This document shows positions 685 to 43,195 of a stretch of DNA of 64,000 nt, piece after piece (position 1 is the first letter of the stretch; the number at the start of each line of letters is the position of its first letter). A program made the translations under genes and the position numbers. The stretch comes from Chitinispirillaceae bacterium (GTDB taxonomy: Bacteria; Fibrobacterota; Chitinivibrionia; Chitinivibrionales; Chitinispirillaceae): NCBI GenBank assembly GCA_016929595.1, contig JAFGIN010000001.1:1-64000 (forward strand). Direction: 5' to 3'. The notes beneath the pieces were generated by a model. The model ran no database searches and was not told the DNA's origin. It was given only the letters and a program-made list of their open reading frames with translations.

Positions 685-816
685 ATGATTGACTTCGTAT
701 TTACTATTATTTACATTTATTGTATGAATACATTAAACCTGATTAATAATCTGCTGGATCCTATTGTCATTAACAGTGGTATTATTTTACTCTCCAGTGG
801 GAGTGCAGGTTTGTAG
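685..816 (+). CDS. putative ilv operon leader peptide
   Basis: An open frame of 43 codons from ATG 685 (or 30 codons from ATG 724), ending at TAG 814-816. Counting from 685, 18 of the 43 residues are Ile, Leu or Val. They are clustered at 733-792, including the runs CTG CTG, ATT GTC ATT and ATT ATT TTA CTC. This is the composition expected of a leader peptide that senses charged Ile, Leu and Val tRNAs ahead of an ilv operon. No clear Shine-Dalgarno precedes either ATG. A GATAAT -10-like hexamer at 672-677 would place a transcript start close to 685, so leaderless initiation is possible. It is probably translated only as a regulatory device. Confidence 0.7.
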   Translation: MIDFVFTIIYIYCMNTLNLINNLLDPIVINSGIILLSSGSAGL

Positions 817-880
817 AAGTATACAAAAAACGTAAAAAATCAAGCCTGCCTCCCGCTGGGATGGCAGGCTTTTTTTATTT
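794..880 (+). promoter_or_regulatory. transcription attenuator upstream of ilvB
   Basis: The terminator stem is AAGCCTGCC (842-850) with GGCAGGCTT (863-871). It is extended by TCCC/GGGA (851-854 with 858-861) and followed by a T-rich run to 880. A competing antiterminator pairs 794-812 with 842-859, about 18 base pairs with one bulge. The two structures share 842-859, so they exclude each other. The 5' antiterminator arm lies in the last codons of the leader frame, just before its TAG at 814. A ribosome that reaches the stop would mask this arm and let the terminator form. A ribosome stalled at the upstream Ile, Val or Leu codons would leave it free. The pairings are seen directly; the regulatory logic follows classical enterobacterial ilv and leu attenuation. 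Confidence 0.8.
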
Positions 881-1087
881 TTATAATTATATTCGCTTGA
901 TTATTCAAGGAGAAGTTCGTATTTTCATCCACTGAATTTCTTTATTATATAGTCCAATTGAGATCTGATGATAACAAAGTATTTCAAATGGGCGTAAATG
1001 AAAATTTTTCTGACTTGAAGTATCAGGGATGAGTTCTAAATCCAGTCACTGCAGATTGGACCACTGTGATCGGTACGGGAGGAGAAT

Positions 1088-2812
1088 TTGAAAAAGACAG
1101 GTGCGCAGATATTAATCGATGCGCTTATTCGTGAAAATGTCAAGGTGTTATTTGGATACCCCGGCGGGGTAGTCATTCCGATCTTTGATGTTATTTACGA
1201 AACAAAGGAATTTACATTCGTTCTGACCCGACATGAACAGGCCGCAGCTCATGCAGCTGACGGGTATGCCCGGGCTACAGGTGAAGTGGGTGTTTGTCTT
1301 GCGACATCCGGACCGGGTGCCACCAATCTGATAACTGGCATAGCTACTGCTTATCTTGATTCGATACCAATGGTAGCCATAACTGGTCAGGTGGCGACTC
1401 CTCTTCTGGGCACTGATGCATTTCAGGAAGCCGATGTCGTTGGAATCAGCAGGCCAATCACAAAACATAATTTTCTGGTACGATCTGTAAAGGAACTTCC
1501 GGAGATAATCAGGAAAGCTTTTTATATTGCATCTACCGGTCGGCCTGGTCCGGTCCTTGTAGATATACCCGTCGATGTTTCGCGCGCGGTTCTTGATGAT
1601 TACCAGTACCCTGAGACTGTATCAATAAGAAGTTATAACCCGGTTGTCGAATGTGATATTGCTCAGATTGATAAAGCTGTAGAGCTGCTTTCTGGCTCAA
1701 AAAAGCCCCTGATATTTGCGGGTGGGGGTGTGAATCATGCCGGTGCATATGAGGAGTTACGGATTTTTGCCGAGAAAACGAATATTCCAGTGACAACCTC
1801 CCTGATGGGGATGGGAACTTTTCCGGCAGAACATGAGCTTTTCATCGGGATGCCTGGAATGCATGGGGCAAAGACAGCTAATTATTCAATTCAGGAAGCT
1901 GATCTTATTTTGTCGATAGGGGTGCGTTTTGATGACCGGGTGACGGGTTTTGTTGCTAACTTCGCGCCTAATGCATCTATTGTTCACATCGATATCGATC
2001 CGGTAACCATATCGAAAATAGTCAAAGTGGATGTTCCGGTTGTTGCGGATGCAAAAACTGCACTCAGGTTGCTTATCGAAAAATCCTCTGCCCGCCCCAA
2101 AAACGAGTGGAATACGAAGGTATCCGGGTGGAAAGGTGAGAAACTCTACACCTATACATCATCAGAGAGTGTGATTAAGCCACAGATGGTGATCGAGGAG
2201 TTGTATAAATTTACTGGTGGTAATGCTGTTGTTGCGACAGAAGTTGGGCAGCATCAGATGTGGACGGCACAGTATTTCAGATGTAATGCGCCACGTACTC
2301 TATTGACTTCCGGTGGTCTCGGAACAATGGGCTTTGGTCTTCCTGCAGCGATGGGTGCTGCGATGGGGATTGATGGTAAACCAGTCATGGTCATCGGGGG
2401 AGACGGTTCGATTCAGATGAATATTCAGGAACTGGCTACCTTGTCGATTAATAATATTCCTGTTAAGATTATCATTCTGAATAACACGTTTCTGGGTATG
2501 GTTCGTCAGTGGCAGGAACTTTTTTATGACCATCGCTATAGTTCAACCTGTATGCGTGGTGGATTTCTCTGTAGTTCCTGTGTTGGAATCGGTGCATGCA
2601 AAAAGCAGTATGTACCTGATTTTGTTGCAGTCGCGAAGGGATACAATATTGCGGCGTTCAGGGCTGAAACGCCTCAACAGGTGTTGCAGGTAATAAAAGA
2701 CGGATTTGCGGTTAATGGACCTGCTCTGATGGAGTTTATTGTTTCGCCAGAGGAAAATGTTTTTCCAATGGTACCGGCAGGCAAATCTCTTGATGACATT
2801 CTGGAGGGATAA
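1088..2812 (+). CDS. ilvB: acetolactate synthase large subunit
   Basis: A thiamine-diphosphate enzyme that condenses two pyruvates to acetolactate, or pyruvate plus 2-oxobutyrate to acetohydroxybutyrate. This is the first common step of valine, leucine and isoleucine synthesis. The 574 residues show the N-terminal Pyr domain with the catalytic Glu in RHEQAAAHAADGYARATG (~residue 50), the central domain and the C-terminal TPP motif GDGSIQMN through NN (~438-462). The start is TTG 1088 behind GGGAGGAGA. Odd feature: where family members normally run directly from RYS to PDF, there is an insert with four cysteines (TCMRGGFLCSSCVGIGACKK, ~residues 489-508) that could hold a metal site. It overlaps ilvN by one base, and expression is probably set by the upstream attenuator. 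Confidence 0.97.
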   Translation: MKKTGAQILIDALIRENVKVLFGYPGGVVIPIFDVIYETKEFTFVLTRHEQAAAHAADGYARATGEVGVCLATSGPGATNLITGIATAYLDSIPMVAITGQVATPLLGTDAFQEADVVGISRPITKHNFLVRSVKELPEIIRKAFYIASTGRPGPVLVDIPVDVSRAVLDDYQYPETVSIRSYNPVVECDIAQIDKAVELLSGSKKPLIFAGGGVNHAGAYEELRIFAEKTNIPVTTSLMGMGTFPAEHELFIGMPGMHGAKTANYSIQEADLILSIGVRFDDRVTGFVANFAPNASIVHIDIDPVTISKIVKVDVPVVADAKTALRLLIEKSSARPKNEWNTKVSGWKGEKLYTYTSSESVIKPQMVIEELYKFTGGNAVVATEVGQHQMWTAQYFRCNAPRTLLTSGGLGTMGFGLPAAMGAAMGIDGKPVMVIGGDGSIQMNIQELATLSINNIPVKIIILNNTFLGMVRQWQELFYDHRYSSTCMRGGFLCSSCVGIGACKKQYVPDFVAVAKGYNIAAFRAETPQQVLQVIKDGFAVNGPALMEFIVSPEENVFPMVPAGKSLDDILEG

Positions 2813-3294
2813 TGAAAAGACATGTTCTATCTTTACTTGTTGAGAATCACAGCGGAGCATTATCCCGGGTTTCCGGACTGTTTTCGAGCCGTGGTTACAA
2901 TATTACTAGTCTTTCTGTTGCTGAGACCGAAGATCCTTCGGTCTCACAAATGACCATTGTTGTCTATGGTGAGGAAAGTATCCTTGGACAGATATTTAAG
3001 CAGCTCGATCGTTTGATCGATATAATTAACGTTACCGATTATATTGACGAACCGCTGATTGTGCGGGAAGTTGTACTTGTTAAGGTTGATAATTCAACGG
3101 AAACCCGCAGGGAAGTGCTTGAACTGTGTTCCATTTTTGGTGCCAGAGTACTCTCGACGGTCCCTTCAAATCTGGTTCTTGAGTTGACTGGGGCAACAGA
3201 GAGTATCAATGATTTTATCCAGATGATCAAGCCTTACGGCATAAGAGGGCTTGTTCGTTCTGGTGCGACTGCGATTTCGCGCTCGAGAGATTAG
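2812..3294 (+). CDS. ilvN: acetolactate synthase small (regulatory) subunit
   Basis: The regulatory partner of the large subunit, giving full activity and valine feedback. At 160 residues it has the usual length. It has an N-terminal ACT domain (LSLLVENHSGALSRVSGLFS, ~residues 6-25, continuing to ~75) and the C-terminal ALS regulatory domain that ends in the conserved GLVRSGATAISR. The ATG overlaps the ilvB stop in TAATG, so the two are translationally coupled and likely made in matched amounts. The gene name could equally be ilvH; the sequence alone does not decide which isozyme it matches. Confidence 0.96.
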   Translation: MKRHVLSLLVENHSGALSRVSGLFSSRGYNITSLSVAETEDPSVSQMTIVVYGEESILGQIFKQLDRLIDIINVTDYIDEPLIVREVVLVKVDNSTETRREVLELCSIFGARVLSTVPSNLVLELTGATESINDFIQMIKPYGIRGLVRSGATAISRSRD

Positions 3295-3363: not shown

Positions 3364-4464
3364 ATGGCAATTATCGATTTCGGTGGCGTCAAAGAAGAAG
3401 TTATTACACGCAAGGAATTTTCACTGGCGAAGGCAAAAAAAGTTCTCAAAGGTGAAGTGATCGCAATTATCGGTTACGGCGTTCAGGGGCCTGCACAGGC
3501 ACTTAATCTGAAAGATAACGGCTTTGACGTTATTATCGGACAGAAGAAATCGATTAAAAAGGACTGGGATCGTGCAGTAAAAGATGGCTGGGTTCCTGGA
3601 AAGACACTTTTTGATATTGAAGAAGCTGTTGAAAAGGCAACAATCGTACAGATGCTGGTTTCTGATGCTGCCCAGATGGCAATCTGGCCAACCGTCAAAA
3701 AACATCTGCAGCCTGGTTCTGCACTGTACTTCTCACACGGTTTCTCAATTGTTTACAAGACAATGACAAAAGTCGTTCCACCGTCAGATGTCGATGTTAT
3801 TCTCGTTGCGCCTAAGGGTAGCGGTCTTAATGTACGTCGCAATTTTCTTTCAGGTGCAGGGATCAACTCCAGTTTTGCTGTATTTCAGGATGCAACCGGT
3901 CGCGCTGAAGAACGTTGTATCGCTCTTGGTATTGGTATCGGTTCAGGATATCTGTTCCCGACAACATTCGAAAATGAAGTGTACAGTGATCTTACTGGTG
4001 AGCGTGGTGTGCTCATGGGCGCTCTTGCCGGTATCATGGAAGCACAGTATGATGTACTTCGTAAAGGTGGTCACAGCCCCTCAGAAGCTTTCAACGAAAC
4101 CGTCGAAGAACTCACACAGAGTCTTATCCGTCTTGTTGATGAGAACGGTATGGACTGGATGTATGGAAACTGTTCTGCTACTGCTCAGCGTGGTGCTCTG
4201 GACTGGAAACCAAAGTTCAAGAAGGCAACACTGCCGGTTTTTAAAGAACTGTATGAATCTGTAAAAAGCGGAAAAGAGACAAAAAGAGTTCTTACTGCCT
4301 GCGGTAAAGAAAACTATAAGGAGCTTCTGGACAAGGAGCTTTCTGTAATGGGTAACTCAGAGATGTGGCTTGCAGGTAAAGCTGCACGCAGCCTTCGTCC
4401 GAAAGAAAAGGCTAAGGAAATTACGAAAGATACCAAAGGTATCAAAGGACGTCAGGGTAACTGA
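3364..4464 (+). CDS. ilvC: ketol-acid reductoisomerase
   Basis: NAD(P)H- and Mg-dependent isomerisation and reduction of acetolactate or acetohydroxybutyrate to the dihydroxy acid, the second step of the branched-chain pathway. A Rossmann motif GYGVQGPAQALNLKDNG starts at ~residue 37. The metal-binding knotted C-terminal domain includes SDLTGERGVLMG (~210-221). At 366 residues it is longer than short class I enzymes (~330) and shorter than class II (~490), and resembles the ~350-residue enzymes of the Bacteroidota/Chlorobi type. A strong GGAAGGAG precedes the ATG. The 69-base gap after ilvN holds the palindrome TTAACTAGTTAA (3324-3335), of unknown meaning. It ends in a Lys-rich tail. Confidence 0.96.
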   Translation: MAIIDFGGVKEEVITRKEFSLAKAKKVLKGEVIAIIGYGVQGPAQALNLKDNGFDVIIGQKKSIKKDWDRAVKDGWVPGKTLFDIEEAVEKATIVQMLVSDAAQMAIWPTVKKHLQPGSALYFSHGFSIVYKTMTKVVPPSDVDVILVAPKGSGLNVRRNFLSGAGINSSFAVFQDATGRAEERCIALGIGIGSGYLFPTTFENEVYSDLTGERGVLMGALAGIMEAQYDVLRKGGHSPSEAFNETVEELTQSLIRLVDENGMDWMYGNCSATAQRGALDWKPKFKKATLPVFKELYESVKSGKETKRVLTACGKENYKELLDKELSVMGNSEMWLAGKAARSLRPKEKAKEITKDTKGIKGRQGN

Positions 4465-4548: not shown

Positions 4549-6090
4549 ATGAAAGATACGGTTTTGATTTTCGATACTACATTGCGTGATGGTGAGCAGG
4601 CGCTTATTGCAAGTCTCAGCGTTGATCAGAAACTCAGGATTGCACGGCAGCTGGCACGTCTGAATGTTGATATCATTGAAGCCGGTTTTCCAGTGTCATC
4701 ACCGGGGGATTTTGAGTCTGTTTCTACGATTGCCCGTGAGGTCGACGGGCCGGTTATCTGTGGACTTGCGCGTCTGGTAGAAAAAGATATCCTTTCCTGT
4801 GCTAAAGCTGTAAAGCCGGCAAAAAGACCGCGCATACACATATTTATTGGAACATCTGCAATACACACAGAAAAAAAGTTGCGAAAGAGTGAAGATGAAA
4901 TTCTTGAACTTGTGAGGGTGCATGTAAAGCTTGCCCGGAAGCTTTGTCCTGATGTCGAGTTCAGCGCAGAGGATGCGGGGCGCACAGGCGGTGACTTTCT
5001 TTGTCGTATAGTAGAAACCGCAATTGAGGCTGGTGCATCGACAATAAATATACCTGATACAGTAGGGTATACCGTACCAGAACATTTTGCATCAATTTTC
5101 GATGATATTTTCAACAGGGTTCCCAATATCGATAAAGCTGTAATATCGGTTCATTGTCACAATGATCTTGGTATGGCCACAGCCAATTCACTTACCGCTG
5201 TAGCTCATGGAGCGCGGCAGATCGAGTGCGCCATGAACGGCATAGGAGAACGTGCCGGTAATGCTGCACTTGAAGAGGTGGTGATGGCGCTCAAAGTGCG
5301 TAAAGATTATTTCAAACTTAAAATAAATGTTGATACAAGAGAAATTATGCGTACTAGTAAACTGGTACGCGAAATCTGCAGCATGCCTGTTCAGCCCAAT
5401 AAAGCGGTGGTTGGCAGTAATGCGTTCTCACACTCATCCGGTATCCATCAGGATGGTGTGCTGAAAGCAAAAAAGACTTATGAGATTATGACTCCTCAAT
5501 CCGTAGGGCTTAAGGATAACCGTATGAATCTGACAAGTCGTTCCGGAAGTCACATGGTAAAATCACGGCTGCTCAGTCTTGGCTATTCTGAAAGTGACTT
5601 TGATGTTGATGTTTTCTATCTGAAGTTCAAGGAGTTGGCCGATAAAAAAGGAACGGTGTATGATGATGATCTCATTACGCTGATGGAATCTAAAAACAAT
5701 GATGATTTCAAAGACCGGTATGTACTCGAGTACCTTAATGTGTCAAGTGGACGGGGTACAATACCAACAGCAACAGCACGGGTTTCCTTTGATGGAAAAT
5801 CAATGCAGGAAGCATCATGCGGGGATGGTGCTGTTGATGCTGCTACAAAAGCGATTGATAGAATTATCGGATACAAAATAACCATTGAAAACTTCCACAT
5901 CGATTCGATAACCGAGGGGCGGGAAGCTCAGGGTAGAGTGACGGTCATTGCGCGTGCATCTGAGGGGGTATTTACAGGTACTGCTGCGAGTACCGATATT
6001 GTTGAAGCGTCTGCGCTCGCATATATGAATGTTATTAATAAGATTGCCCGCATGAAATTGTTCAACAGAAAACTACCGGTAGGTGAGTGA
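4549..6090 (+). CDS. leuA: 2-isopropylmalate synthase
   Basis: Condenses acetyl-CoA with 2-oxoisovalerate, the committed step of leucine synthesis. The TIM-barrel HMGL-like domain has the signature DTTLRDGEQA (residues ~9-18) and the metal motif HCHNDLGMATAN (~202-213). The GIHQDGVLK subdomain follows near residue 300. The C-terminal LeuA dimer domain (~380-510) is the usual site of leucine feedback inhibition. The full length of 513 residues is normal. The start ATG 4549 follows GAGAGGATG. It shares family but not function with cimA downstream: LeuA uses 2-oxoisovalerate, CimA uses pyruvate. Confidence 0.95.
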   Translation: MKDTVLIFDTTLRDGEQALIASLSVDQKLRIARQLARLNVDIIEAGFPVSSPGDFESVSTIAREVDGPVICGLARLVEKDILSCAKAVKPAKRPRIHIFIGTSAIHTEKKLRKSEDEILELVRVHVKLARKLCPDVEFSAEDAGRTGGDFLCRIVETAIEAGASTINIPDTVGYTVPEHFASIFDDIFNRVPNIDKAVISVHCHNDLGMATANSLTAVAHGARQIECAMNGIGERAGNAALEEVVMALKVRKDYFKLKINVDTREIMRTSKLVREICSMPVQPNKAVVGSNAFSHSSGIHQDGVLKAKKTYEIMTPQSVGLKDNRMNLTSRSGSHMVKSRLLSLGYSESDFDVDVFYLKFKELADKKGTVYDDDLITLMESKNNDDFKDRYVLEYLNVSSGRGTIPTATARVSFDGKSMQEASCGDGAVDAATKAIDRIIGYKITIENFHIDSITEGREAQGRVTVIARASEGVFTGTAASTDIVEASALAYMNVINKIARMKLFNRKLPVGE

Positions 6091-6186: not shown

Positions 6187-7251
6187 ATGAAAAGCTATAA
6201 TATCTCGTTGATGCCCGGTGATGGAACCGGTCCGGAAGTAATAAATGAGGGTATCAAGGTACTCAAAGCTGTCGCTGCAAAAAATAATTTTTCGCTCAAC
6301 TTTACAAATTATGATTTTGGCGGTGAACGTTATAAACGTACCGGCGAGACGCTGCCGGATTCAGCTATTGAGGAGTTCAGAAAATCTGATGCAATCTATC
6401 TTGGAGCAATCGGTCATCCTGATGTAAAACCTGGAATCCTCGAATTGGGAATCCTTCTCAAGTTGCGTTTTGCACTTGATCAGTATATTAATCTCAGACC
6501 GGTAAAACTGTATCCTAATGTTGATTCGCCACTTAAGGATAAAGGCCCGGAACATATCGATTTCGTTGTCATCCGAGAGAATTCCGGTGGTATCTACACT
6601 GGTATGGGTGGTGCTGCGATGGTCGGGACAAATCAGGAGATTGCAACTCAGGTCATGGTATATTCACGGCCGGTTGTCGAGCGGTGCATACGCTATGCAT
6701 ATGACTATACACGTAAACGCAACAGGAAGAAAACATTGACCCTTGTTCATAAATGCAATGTTCTTACCTATGCGGGTGATCTCTGGGTACGCACTCACAA
6801 AGAAGTTGGTGATGCGGATTACAAAGATATCAAACAGGATTACAACCATGTTGATGCATGCACCATGTGGATGGTGAAGAGCCCTGAATTTTACGATGTT
6901 ATTGTAACTGAGAATCTCTTTGGAGACATTATTACTGATCTTGGTGCTATGATTCAGGGTGGAATGGGTATAGCCGCAGGTGGTAATATCAATCCTGAAG
7001 GTGTTTCGATGTTTGAACCTATTGGTGGAAGTGCTCCGAAATATACCGGTCAGAATATAATCAATCCGCTTGCCGCAATCTGCTCCGGTGGAATGATGCT
7101 TGAAACGCTTGGCGAAACAAATGCTGCCGCAGCAATTGATGCAGCGGTTACAGCAGTTCTTGCATCTGGTAAAATAAAGAGTCTATCAGCCGGAAAAATG
7201 GGTATGGGGACCAGAGAAATCGGAGATATGATAGCTTCAATGGTGAGCTGA
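6187..7251 (+). CDS. leuB: 3-isopropylmalate dehydrogenase
   Basis: NAD-dependent oxidative decarboxylation of 3-isopropylmalate. In a citramalate pathway the same enzyme would oxidise methylmalate to 2-oxobutyrate. The 354 residues belong to the beta-decarboxylating dehydrogenase family. They show GDGTGPEV at ~12-19, the substrate-binding RENSGGIYTG (~129-138), the catalytic Lys in VHKCNVL (~188) and the metal-binding region ENLFGDIITDLG (~240-251). The start ATG 6187 follows AAAAAGGA. Related isocitrate or tartrate dehydrogenases are possible by family alone, but the place between leuA and cimA decides for leuB. leuCD are absent from the window. Confidence 0.9.
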   Translation: MKSYNISLMPGDGTGPEVINEGIKVLKAVAAKNNFSLNFTNYDFGGERYKRTGETLPDSAIEEFRKSDAIYLGAIGHPDVKPGILELGILLKLRFALDQYINLRPVKLYPNVDSPLKDKGPEHIDFVVIRENSGGIYTGMGGAAMVGTNQEIATQVMVYSRPVVERCIRYAYDYTRKRNRKKTLTLVHKCNVLTYAGDLWVRTHKEVGDADYKDIKQDYNHVDACTMWMVKSPEFYDVIVTENLFGDIITDLGAMIQGGMGIAAGGNINPEGVSMFEPIGGSAPKYTGQNIINPLAAICSGGMMLETLGETNAAAAIDAAVTAVLASGKIKSLSAGKMGMGTREIGDMIASMVS

Positions 7252-7372: not shown

Positions 7373-7413
7373 CTATAGTAAACTTGGGAGAGATCCCGGT
7401 AAAGGAACGTAAA

Positions 7414-9003
7414 TTGCATAAGGTCACGTTATATGACACAACATTACGGGATGGGAATCAGGCCCTGGGTATAAGTCTGTCGTTGAATGATAAGCTGACA
7501 ATAACCGAAAAGATTGACGATTCGGGAATACACTATATCGAGGGTGGATGGCCGAATCCGACCAATGCAATTGATACGGAGTATTACAAAAAGGTCAGAT
7601 CGCTGAAACTAAAGGCGAAGATTGCTGCGTTTGGCAGTACGTGCCGGCCTGGCGTAGTGGCTTCTGAAGACCCATTTTTAAAAATGCTTGTGGAGACCGG
7701 GGCGCCGGTTGCGACAATATTTGGAAAAAGTTGGAATCTGCATGTTGAAAAGGTAATCAATACTACTCTTGATGAGAACCTGTCAATGATTAACAGTTCG
7801 GTCGAATTCCTTAAAAAGAACATGTCCGAAGTCATCTATGATGCAGAGCACTTTTTTGATGGATACAAAGCTGATCCGGATTATGCTGTAAAGACCCTTC
7901 ATGCAGCGCAGGATGGGGGAGCTGATTACATAATTTTATGTGATACCAATGGTGGTTTATTACCGGATGAGTTGCTCAGGATATTTCTTGATGTCAAAAA
8001 GAAAATTGGTGCTCCGCTGGGGATCCACATGCATAACGACAGCGGTTGCGCTGAAGCGTCATCGTGTCTGGCTGTTATGGAGGGAGCTGTGCAGGTTCAG
8101 GGGACAATTAATGGGCTTGGGGAACGGTGTGGAAACGCAAATCTCTGCACGATAATTCCAAATCTTCAGATAAAGCGCAACTTCAGACTAATTTCAGAAA
8201 ACCAGTTAGCGACGCTGACTTCGCTATCGGTTTTTATATCGGAAATATGCAATATTACTCCAAATATTCGTTTACCGTATGTAGGTGAGGCTGCATTTTC
8301 CCACAAAGCGGGAGCGCATGCCGATGGTGTCAGAAAGGTCAGGCACTCGTTTGAGCACATATTACCGGATCTTGTCGGGAACAAGCGTCATTTTGTTGTT
8401 TCAGATCAGGCTGGATCAAGCACTATACTGGAACGGTTAAGTTCACTCAATTTTTCTTTTGATAAAAAAGATCCCAGGGTAAAAAGCCTTCTGAACAAAG
8501 TTAAGGTAATGGAATCCGAAGGGTATCAGTTTGAGGCTGCTGATGCATCTTTTGAGTTGATTGCCCGTCAAATGCTCGAAGACCTTGAAGAGCCTTTTAC
8601 TGTTGCAGGGTACAGAGTGATGGAGGAGAAGCGTTCTGATGGACGTGGATTTTCTGAAGCTACGATAAAGGTATATGAAGGTGACACTTACGAGCATACC
8701 GCAGCTGAGGGCGATGGACCGGTAAATGCTCTTGATAATGCACTGCGCAAAGCGCTGAAAAAATTCTTTCCATCACTGCAGGCAGTGAAGCTTGATGATT
8801 TTAAGGTGCGCGTTCTTGATGGAAGTGATGGTACTGGTGCGAAAGTCCGTGTGCTTATAGAATCAACTGACGGAATCGATCGGTGGGGAACTGTAGGAGT
8901 CTCTTCGAATGTAATTGAGGCATCATGGATCGCTCTTATCGATAGCTTAAAATACAAATTAATGAAAGATAGTTTGAGGGGAAGGGTGAAGGGTGAAGGG
9001 TGA
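7414..9003 (+). CDS. cimA: (R)-citramalate synthase
   Basis: Condenses acetyl-CoA and pyruvate to citramalate, giving a threonine-independent route to 2-oxobutyrate and isoleucine. It has DTTLRDGNQALG near the N terminus, the metal site HMHNDSGC, GLGERCGNANL and a C-terminal LeuA-type regulatory domain. The chosen start is TTG 7414, because AAAGGA lies 7 bases upstream and the family starts close to LYDTTLRDG. An upstream in-frame TTG at 7384 lacks a good ribosome site. The last residues (RGRVKGEG) and the stop codon are written by a GAAGGGT heptamer array, so the C terminus has been remodelled by a microsatellite. The product should feed IlvBN, IlvC and IlvE. Confidence 0.93.
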   Translation: MHKVTLYDTTLRDGNQALGISLSLNDKLTITEKIDDSGIHYIEGGWPNPTNAIDTEYYKKVRSLKLKAKIAAFGSTCRPGVVASEDPFLKMLVETGAPVATIFGKSWNLHVEKVINTTLDENLSMINSSVEFLKKNMSEVIYDAEHFFDGYKADPDYAVKTLHAAQDGGADYIILCDTNGGLLPDELLRIFLDVKKKIGAPLGIHMHNDSGCAEASSCLAVMEGAVQVQGTINGLGERCGNANLCTIIPNLQIKRNFRLISENQLATLTSLSVFISEICNITPNIRLPYVGEAAFSHKAGAHADGVRKVRHSFEHILPDLVGNKRHFVVSDQAGSSTILERLSSLNFSFDKKDPRVKSLLNKVKVMESEGYQFEAADASFELIARQMLEDLEEPFTVAGYRVMEEKRSDGRGFSEATIKVYEGDTYEHTAAEGDGPVNALDNALRKALKKFFPSLQAVKLDDFKVRVLDGSDGTGAKVRVLIESTDGIDRWGTVGVSSNVIEASWIALIDSLKYKLMKDSLRGRVKGEG

Positions 9004-9251: not shown

Positions 9252-10271
9252 ATGGCTTTGCAGATCGATTGGAAGAATTTAGGTTTTAAATATATGCAGA
9301 CTGATAGTTATGTCAGGATAGATTATACAAAAGGGAAGTGGGGGCAGATACAGGTCTGTACCGACATCATGATGCAGTTACATGTTGCAGCAACCTGTCT
9401 TCATTACGGTCAGGCGTGTTTTGAAGGGATGAAGGCATTTTCTCAAGCGGATGGAAGTGTTGCTGTTTTTCGTCCCGATGAAAATGCATATAGAATGAAT
9501 GCTACAGCTCAGCGGTTAATGATGGTTGCTCCGCCTGCAGATCTTTTCAATGAAGCGGTTCGACAAGTGGTGAAAGAGAACAGAGAATGGGTGCCGCCTT
9601 ATGGTACAGGTGCAAGCCTTTATCTGCGCCCTTTACTTATTGGGTCAAGCCCGCATGTTGGTATCCATCCTTCTGAGGATTTTATTTTTTTACTTTTGTG
9701 TATGCCTGTGGGGCCGTACTACAAAGATGGTTTTTTTCCTGTCAGGGCACTTGTTCAGGAGAGGTATGACAGGGCTGCCCCGCATGGAGTTGGCAATGTA
9801 AAAGCTGCTGGCAATTATGCTTCCGCAATGCAAGGTGATTTCACTGGTAAAGATGAAGGTTTTCCGATAAGTTTGTACCTTGATTCTGCTTCACATAAGT
9901 ATGTTGATGAGTTTGGGACGTCAAATTTCTTTGCAATAACAAAGGATAACCGCTACGTGACACCTGCCTCTACTTCGATTCTTCCCTCAATAACAAACAA
10001 GAGTCTTCAGGTGGTTGCCGCTGATATGGGTATGATTGTAGAGTGCAGGCCGGTGCTCTTTGATGAAATAACTACATTTGCCGAGATTGGTGCCTGTGGA
10101 ACAGCGGCAGTCATAACTCCTGTCTATTCTATTACACGTGGAGATAAAGTGTATACATTCGGGAATGAATCGCAGGCTGGAGAGGTGCTCACAAAGCTGT
10201 TCAAAACTTTTCAGGGTATCCAGTATGGCGAGATGGAAGACCGGCATAACTGGTGTCATAAAATTTTGTAG
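9252..10271 (+). CDS. ilvE: branched-chain amino acid aminotransferase
   Basis: A pyridoxal-phosphate fold-type IV transaminase for the last step of Val, Leu and Ile synthesis, using glutamate as amino donor. The 339 residues match the eukaryote-like BCAT group II. The catalytic Lys is in GNVKAAGNY (~residue 184), YGQACFEGMKAF lies near residue 57 and EIGACGTAAVITPV near the C terminus. The start ATG 9252 has only a weak ribosome site. It follows cimA after ~250 bases of repeat-rich sequence and may have its own promoter there. It ends 12 bases before the next gene. Confidence 0.94.
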   Translation: MALQIDWKNLGFKYMQTDSYVRIDYTKGKWGQIQVCTDIMMQLHVAATCLHYGQACFEGMKAFSQADGSVAVFRPDENAYRMNATAQRLMMVAPPADLFNEAVRQVVKENREWVPPYGTGASLYLRPLLIGSSPHVGIHPSEDFIFLLLCMPVGPYYKDGFFPVRALVQERYDRAAPHGVGNVKAAGNYASAMQGDFTGKDEGFPISLYLDSASHKYVDEFGTSNFFAITKDNRYVTPASTSILPSITNKSLQVVAADMGMIVECRPVLFDEITTFAEIGACGTAAVITPVYSITRGDKVYTFGNESQAGEVLTKLFKTFQGIQYGEMEDRHNWCHKIL

Positions 10272-43071: not shown

Positions 43072-43195
43072 ATGCTGTCGGTGAATGCTGTTGGAAAGCC
43101 GTATGAAGGAAAACTTCACGTACGGTTTGATGTGGCAGGAGATGGTAAGGGATCTGTAAAGGGATAACCTGCCATATCTTGACCCTACCAGACCT
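42430..43195 (+). mobile_element. 5'-truncated group II intron
   Basis: This contains the last ~215 codons of a reverse transcriptase-maturase and, after its stop at 43071, a domain V-like hairpin. That hairpin is AAGCCGTATGAAGG...CTTCACGTACGGTTTG (~43095-43133), followed by a 3' segment ending near CTTGACCCTACCAG. Domains I-IV 5' parts and the N-terminal RT blocks are gone, so it cannot self-splice. Confidence 0.8.

Follow-up and report, generated by a model that had tools for sequence, protein, structure and literature searches.

A putative leader-peptide attenuator ahead of the branched-chain amino acid operon in a Chitinispirillaceae bacterium and its order

Positions 724-876 of the sequence analyzed here, a 64,000-nt stretch of Chitinispirillaceae contig JAFGIN010000001.1 (the window), very probably form a ribosome-mediated transcription attenuator of a minimal, two-structure kind. 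A leader frame rich in Ile, Leu and Val codons is followed by an antiterminator and a terminator that share one arm, and the triple of frame, antiterminator and terminator precedes ilvB at 33 of the order's 35 readable loci, spread over six families and including the window. The initial annotation had proposed a leader-peptide attenuator ahead of an ilv-leu-cimA operon; the frame, codons and stems conserved among relatives, together with the covariation of those stems, support that proposal.

Table 1. Attenuator, promoters and operon genes, in window coordinates
Feature	Position	Strand	Remarks
Predicted promoter P1: -35 TTGACT 689-694, 17-nt spacer, -10 TACATT 712-717	689-717	+	
Leader peptide ORF, MNTLNLINNLLDPIVINSGIILLSSGSAGL and stop	724-816	+	Predicted leaderless; corresponding frame in 33 loci
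Control codons: Ile-Val-Ile 763-771 and Ile-Ile-Leu-Leu 781-792	763-792	+	
Antiterminator 5' arm, within last leader codons, T804 bulged	795-813	+	Folding, covariation
Shared arm: antiterminator 3' arm 841-858; 842-854 also terminator 5' arm	841-858	+	Folding, covariation
Intrinsic terminator: hairpin 842-871 (loop 855-857, T862 bulged), T-tract 870-876	842-876	+	Folding, covariation
Predicted promoter P2, after terminator: TTGATT-N17-TATTTT	897-925	+	
Shine-Dalgarno of ilvB (GGGAGGAG)	1077-1084	+	-10.3 kcal/mol
ilvB, acetolactate synthase large subunit, TTG start	1088-2812	+	TIGR00118 above cut-off
ilvN, acetolactate synthase small subunit	2812-3294	+	TIGR00119 above cut-off
ilvC, ketol-acid reductoisomerase	3364-4464	+	TIGR00465 above cut-off
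leuA, 2-isopropylmalate synthase	4549-6090	+	TIGR00973 above cut-off
leuB-like 3-isopropylmalate dehydrogenase	6187-7251	+	NF002898 above cut-off
cimA, citramalate synthase	7384-9003	+	TIGR00977 above cut-off
ilvE, branched-chain aminotransferase	9252-10271	+	TIGR01123 above cut-off

Results

As expected of an attenuator, the element lies ahead of genes making Ile, Leu and Val, and its leader is rich in codons for these end products (13 of 30 codons). No strong terminator was seen in the gaps between the operon genes, and we infer that ilvE belongs to the operon despite a 249-nt gap. Almost all relatives, like the window, start ilvB with a codon other than ATG, which is TTG within the window's family and for the most part GTG or TTG in sister families. 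The leader runs from a conserved ATG at 724, 6 nt past the predicted -10 of P1, to the TAG at 814-816. In-frame ATGs at 685 and 670 would give 43- and 48-codon versions, but these cannot sit on a P1 transcript because both ATGs are upstream of the predicted -35. Thus, where a frame of 30-43 codons ending at TAG 814 had been described, the 30-codon version stands and the 43-codon version is unlikely. The leader indeed lacks a Shine-Dalgarno sequence, as had been noted (+3.7 kcal/mol against the anti-Shine-Dalgarno, versus -10.3 for ilvB itself). At the extreme edge of the contig (1-110) is a tandem array of the short unit ATGGTGA.

The last leader codons pair with the shared arm over 18 pairs (two of them G-U), so that the 18-bp antiterminator first drawn as 794-812 with 842-859 is real but shifted by about one base. 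RNAfold of 782-872 returns this antiterminator (-36.0 kcal/mol, z -4.9; 0 of 200 shuffles as stable), while 819-880 folded alone returns the terminator (-24.7 kcal/mol, z -5.2) at a stability that no shuffle reached (shuffled mean -10.9), confirming the strong hairpin and T-run reported there; z for leader folding is -4.3 to -4.9 (0 of 200 shuffles equally stable). The terminator is thus placed between leader and first gene, and the antiterminator that shares its arm excludes it, both as expected of an attenuator. No third "protector" (1:2) helix stood out in folds of the window leader. None of the Rfam models Leu_leader (RF00512), Trp_leader (RF00513), His_leader (RF00514), Thr_leader (RF00506) and Phe_leader (RF01859) reached its gathering threshold, the best score in the window being 22.8 bits for Thr_leader (cut-off 55), nor did any T-box or riboswitch; the only Rfam matches in the window were to tRNA and a group II catalytic intron (43094-43188; RF00029, 43.1 bits).

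IlvB was searched in 61 genomes and in all 40 available genomes of the window's order, and upstream regions were examined on the correct strand by a scripted search for a terminator, a complementary upstream arm and a short Ile/Leu/Val ORF ending at that arm. The element was absent from two readable loci of the order (G029 and G038), and inspection found no leader at eight loci (L116-L122, L130) of four other families in the same phylum but outside the order. As a false-positive check, a like scan of regions upstream of ilvD and leuC in 15 genomes of the same clade gave 0 of 29. Among 80 more distant ilvB loci there were one close likeness and two alphaproteobacterial short leaders. The close likeness (L106, Omnitrophota contig QZKN01000099.1) combines the leader MNRIFSLFVAREIVNVLIVVVGVGTPAAFGRDG ahead of ilvB with an antiterminator, a terminator and, near the ATG, a -10-like box. 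A scan of Trp, His, homoserine and Phe operons turned up only one convincing leader of this kind, at the trpE of one relative (L138, genome G008): a Trp-Trp leader, MNLVYKSEIRKIAFWWRSFINRAVLS, with an antiterminator and a terminator; no such attenuator was found ahead of trpE in the other relatives scanned.

The initial annotation had called for alignment with related ilvB regions, and in that alignment the leader frame, the Ile/Leu/Val codons and both stems are kept, the stems with covariation. Nine-base arms were placed in register in 26 distinct rows (in the window's row the T804 bulge was removed, and the inter-arm spacers are artificial). The antiterminator has 94.4% of cells paired and the terminator 94.0%, percentages biased toward structure because the register was set on the middle arm; the base changes themselves are unbiased, and they fall on both sides at six of nine antiterminator pairs and five of nine terminator pairs. 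Cells changed on both sides number 29 in the antiterminator (9.0 in shuffles) and 22 in the terminator (7.4), with 0 of 500 shuffles as high in each case, although such p-values, like those for codons below, are optimistic since the relatives are not independent. Sliding the arms by 1-3 columns cuts pairing to 29-66% and 32-61%, respectively. The N-terminal half of the peptide varies freely among relatives: what is kept is the Ile/Leu/Val content (V 17.8, L 14.0 and I 13.2% over 33 leaders) and the arm-encoded end.

The position of the control codons follows the arm. Across the 33 leaders, Ile, Leu and Val take a share of 0.82-0.91 in codons -8 to -5, counted from the arm start, and this drops to 0.24 at -4, 0.12 at -3 and 0.03 at -2; low values inside the arm are forced by its G-rich sequence, but codons -4 to -2 precede the 10 nt that were scored as the arm. 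In a simple footprint model, in which the ribosome is assumed to cover 15 nt on the 5' side and 12 nt on the 3' side of the first A-site base and only RNA ending before the terminator 3' arm is folded, the probability of the antiterminator is 0.99 for a stall at -5, 0.89 at -4, 0.54 at -3, 0.12 at -2 and 0 at the stop, so the edge of the codon block is also the edge of the switch. With this assumed footprint the codons are placed as an attenuator needs them, with a stall freeing the arm and a ribosome at the stop masking it. In the window, the model leaves the arm free for all stalls up to the codon at 793, with masking from the codon at 799; the expectation that stalls at 763-771 free the arm is borne out, whereas the suggestion that stalls at 781-792 might cover part of it is not. 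With no ribosome on the leader the modeled antiterminator forms (mean 0.96), and the default state of the switch is predicted to be ON. Equilibrium folding of full leaders with a masked footprint was also tried and was uninformative. Because the full-length leader at equilibrium favors the terminator in most relatives whatever the ribosome position, the switch would have to work kinetically, like most attenuators.

The choice of leader codons is evidently under selection. Of leader Leu codons 26% are CTA, against 3.3% in a control set of 180 long ORFs from the clade (odds ratio 10, p = 2e-18, ancestry ignored) and 1% in ilvB; Ile ATT and Val GTA show a like preference over the control ORFs (odds ratios 3.8 and 1.6), again with ancestry ignored. 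CTA is present in 23 of 33 leaders, though not in the window's own. In the Salmonella leu leader, as cited in PMC1183508, the control codon is CUA and a swap to CUG lowers sensitivity.

Start mode probably differs between lineages. In 18 of the 22 members of the window's family, the best promoter, chosen by the same rule throughout, has its -10 at 6-9 nt upstream of the leader ATG, and in three more a fitting hexamer is seen there by eye. Nearly all of these leaders lack a Shine-Dalgarno sequence, while ilvB in the same genomes has one (-6.6 to -10.6 kcal/mol); L019, the one clear member whose 5' end is longer, has a strong one (-5.6). In sister families the -10 is usually 17-24 nt upstream and a Shine-Dalgarno sequence is usually present (-4.7 to -7.7), with the exceptions of L025, where it is weak, and L028, where it is absent and the -10 is at 39 nt; at both loci of family f2 and one of family f5 the distance is again 6-9 nt. 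Such a pattern is expected if initiation is leaderless, and the window's leader is probably leaderless. This would explain the missing Shine-Dalgarno sequence, which is therefore not a weakness of the attenuator reading.

A second putative promoter, P2, follows the terminator. TTGATT-N17/18-TATTTT or a close variant lies between terminator and ilvB in 21 of 33 loci (versus 0.27% of shuffled segments); at the other 12 the attenuator stands with no match to P2. A AAAGGTCG-like stretch, which may be a regulator site, tends to recur in the P2 spacer within the window's family. Since P2 is past the terminator, part of operon expression should escape attenuation, which would govern only transcripts from P1; P2 would supply a basal level and so set a floor. 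Transcripts starting downstream of 880 had been named as potential evidence against the attenuator: the predicted P2 touches on this point but does not overturn the attenuator.

A second IlvB, 45% identical to the first and accompanied by an ilvM-like small subunit, is encoded in the same genome (G000:C155; L123, L196) and in relatives. Val-only leaders with their own antiterminator and terminator precede this second ilvB in six genomes, the window's own, whose Val-run leader ends in ILTVVVVVVVVLSGSTPV before the stop, and five relatives (L124-L128), while G002 and G012 have the gene with no convincing leader. Within the 520 nt examined upstream, L125 (G006) and L126 (G008) carry two complete Val units in series. 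In L126 the second leader's ATG, with its own Shine-Dalgarno sequence, is within about a dozen bases of the first T-run, leaving no room for a promoter, and so both attenuators must be passed. Our search of the open-access literature for serial attenuators and Val-codon tandem leaders returned nothing relevant, and no published amino-acid precedent for serial attenuators: the "tandem attenuators" case that came up, Salmonella mgtCBR, has two ORFs within one leader.

Discussion

From the frame, codons, helices, covariation, geometry and promoter motifs that sequence and comparison provide, we infer start sites, leaderless translation, stalling, termination and a basal role for P2, which together suggest the following mechanism. 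RNA polymerase would start from P1 at about 724, and the leader would be translated leaderless from its ATG at 724. With ample charged tRNA for Ile, Leu and Val, the ribosome would reach the stop at 814 and cover 795-813, leaving 842-854 free to pair with 858-871, and transcription would end at the T-tract near 876 to give a transcript of about 150 nt. When any of these tRNAs is short, the ribosome would stall in the codon block before 793, and the exposed 795-813 would pair with 841-858 once it is transcribed, before the terminator 3' arm exists, allowing polymerase to continue into ilvB-ilvN-ilvC-leuA-leuB-cimA. Since no third protector helix stood out, a leader with no ribosome would be read through by default. 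Transcripts from P2 would bypass the switch.

Even with an attenuator in place, P2 could be the main promoter, so that attenuation matters little for output. An intact -35/-10 pair spaced by 17-18 nt in 21 of the 33 loci is in keeping with this, but the attenuator is kept more widely than P2, the 12 loci without a P2 match among them, and selection evidently acts on its leader codons; we regard a dominant P2 as unlikely. The leader may also start further upstream than we predict, and be translated without a Shine-Dalgarno sequence or from the in-frame ATGs at 670 or 685, given that the start site of its transcript is a prediction. These upstream ATGs are not conserved, however, and the short distance from -10 to ATG recurs across the family, whereas relatives with the longer distance mostly have Shine-Dalgarno sequences, which makes initiation other than leaderless unlikely.

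Alternatively, the hairpin at 842-876 might merely terminate a small upstream gene, the leader ORF being incidental. Just upstream of P1, on the same strand, is a small conserved gene (413-601), and there would be nothing remarkable in a terminator separating it from ilvB. This gene encodes a protein of 62 residues that matches Rho_N (PF07498) weakly and has Cys in its tail; several family members (L003, L006, L008 and L012) carry a comparable gene ahead of the leader. This explanation is already disfavored, and we consider it very improbable: a conserved promoter and leader frame stand between gene and terminator, the upstream arm covaries with the terminator, Ile/Leu/Val codons keep a fixed distance from that arm, and many relatives have other sequence in the gene's place with the attenuator still there. 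Equally improbable, in our judgment, is a role in trans for the short terminated RNA or the leader peptide beyond attenuation in cis, as with peTrpL in Sinorhizobium; the trp leader peptide is known to act in this way (PMC7298713). Against such a role, the N-terminal half of the peptide is free to vary, with only Ile/Leu/Val content and the arm-encoded end retained.

Enterobacterial leaders differ from the window's in initiating at Shine-Dalgarno sequences and in folding into a 1:2, 2:3 and 3:4 helix set, and none of their Rfam models reaches its cut-off in the window. The likeness is in the branched-chain control codons of the ilvGMEDA, ilvBN and leu attenuators and the bias toward rare Leu CUA (for leu, as given in PMC1183508). 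To call this form of control best documented in enterobacteria, as the initial annotation did, understates the precedent, since ilvB attenuators of Corynebacterium and Mycobacterium work much alike.

For Mycobacterium tuberculosis ilvB1, available portions of PMC13236596 describe the same mechanism, supported by reporter and codon replacement: the uORF of the ilvB1NC operon has Leu-Val-Val-Ile control codons, and a ribosome at the stop codon masks the antiterminator arm of two mutually exclusive structures. The sequences are unrelated, and the mechanism is proven there by reporter but here deduced from sequence. That leader, 126 nt to the end of the U-tract, is not described as leaderless in those portions, nor do they mention a second promoter after the terminator, such as the predicted P2 of the window. 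The Corynebacterium glutamicum ilvBNC leader (PMC11857589), with Leu and Val control codons and an antiterminator overlapping the terminator, is treated as leaderless mRNA, as the window leader probably is, judging from its promoter geometry and missing Shine-Dalgarno sequence; it has a third, anti-antiterminator hairpin, where no third helix was found in the window's leader, and its overlap is a boundary trinucleotide rather than one long shared arm. Candidate actinobacterial ilvB leaders (PMC1262725) are likewise short ORFs ahead of ilvB with Ile/Val/Leu runs overlapping terminator hairpins; no antiterminator is given for them, whereas the window's is backed by covariation. Counting against the attenuator reading, mutation of the candidate control codons in a similar-looking Streptomyces coelicolor ilvB leader is reported to have had no effect (PMC1262725). 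Staphylococcus aureus also controls an ilv-leu operon by a leader peptide (PMC5794164), but through Leu only and with a CodY layer, and its predicted antiterminator engages the poly-U tail by pairing while the hairpin itself stays formed.

Leaderless and two-structure ilvB attenuators are thus already known in Actinobacteria, and the window's appears to be a further, order-wide example. Within the open-access literature, what seems new is the order-wide set, the difference in start mode, the putative bypass promoter and the serial Val units; searches there for leader-peptide attenuation in Fibrobacter and leaderless starts in Fibrobacteres found nothing relevant. A broader picture, to which we would give an even chance, is that the order runs branched-chain synthesis by leaderless, default-ON, two-structure attenuators, with start mode switched between lineages while codon and arm geometry stay fixed, a post-terminator promoter as a floor, and a paralogous ilvB under Val-only control that is serial in L125 and L126.

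These attenuators would extend leader-peptide attenuation to an order in which we found none described. They offer 33 natural variants of one compact switch. What varies and what is fixed among them, in start mode, in the choice of codons (CTA, ATT, GTA) and in where these stand, may serve as a direct test for models of how sensitive attenuation is. With both start modes, leaderless and Shine-Dalgarno, in one order, nature would provide an experiment on timely ribosome loading, and the serial Val attenuators pose the question of whether two stacked switches steepen the response.
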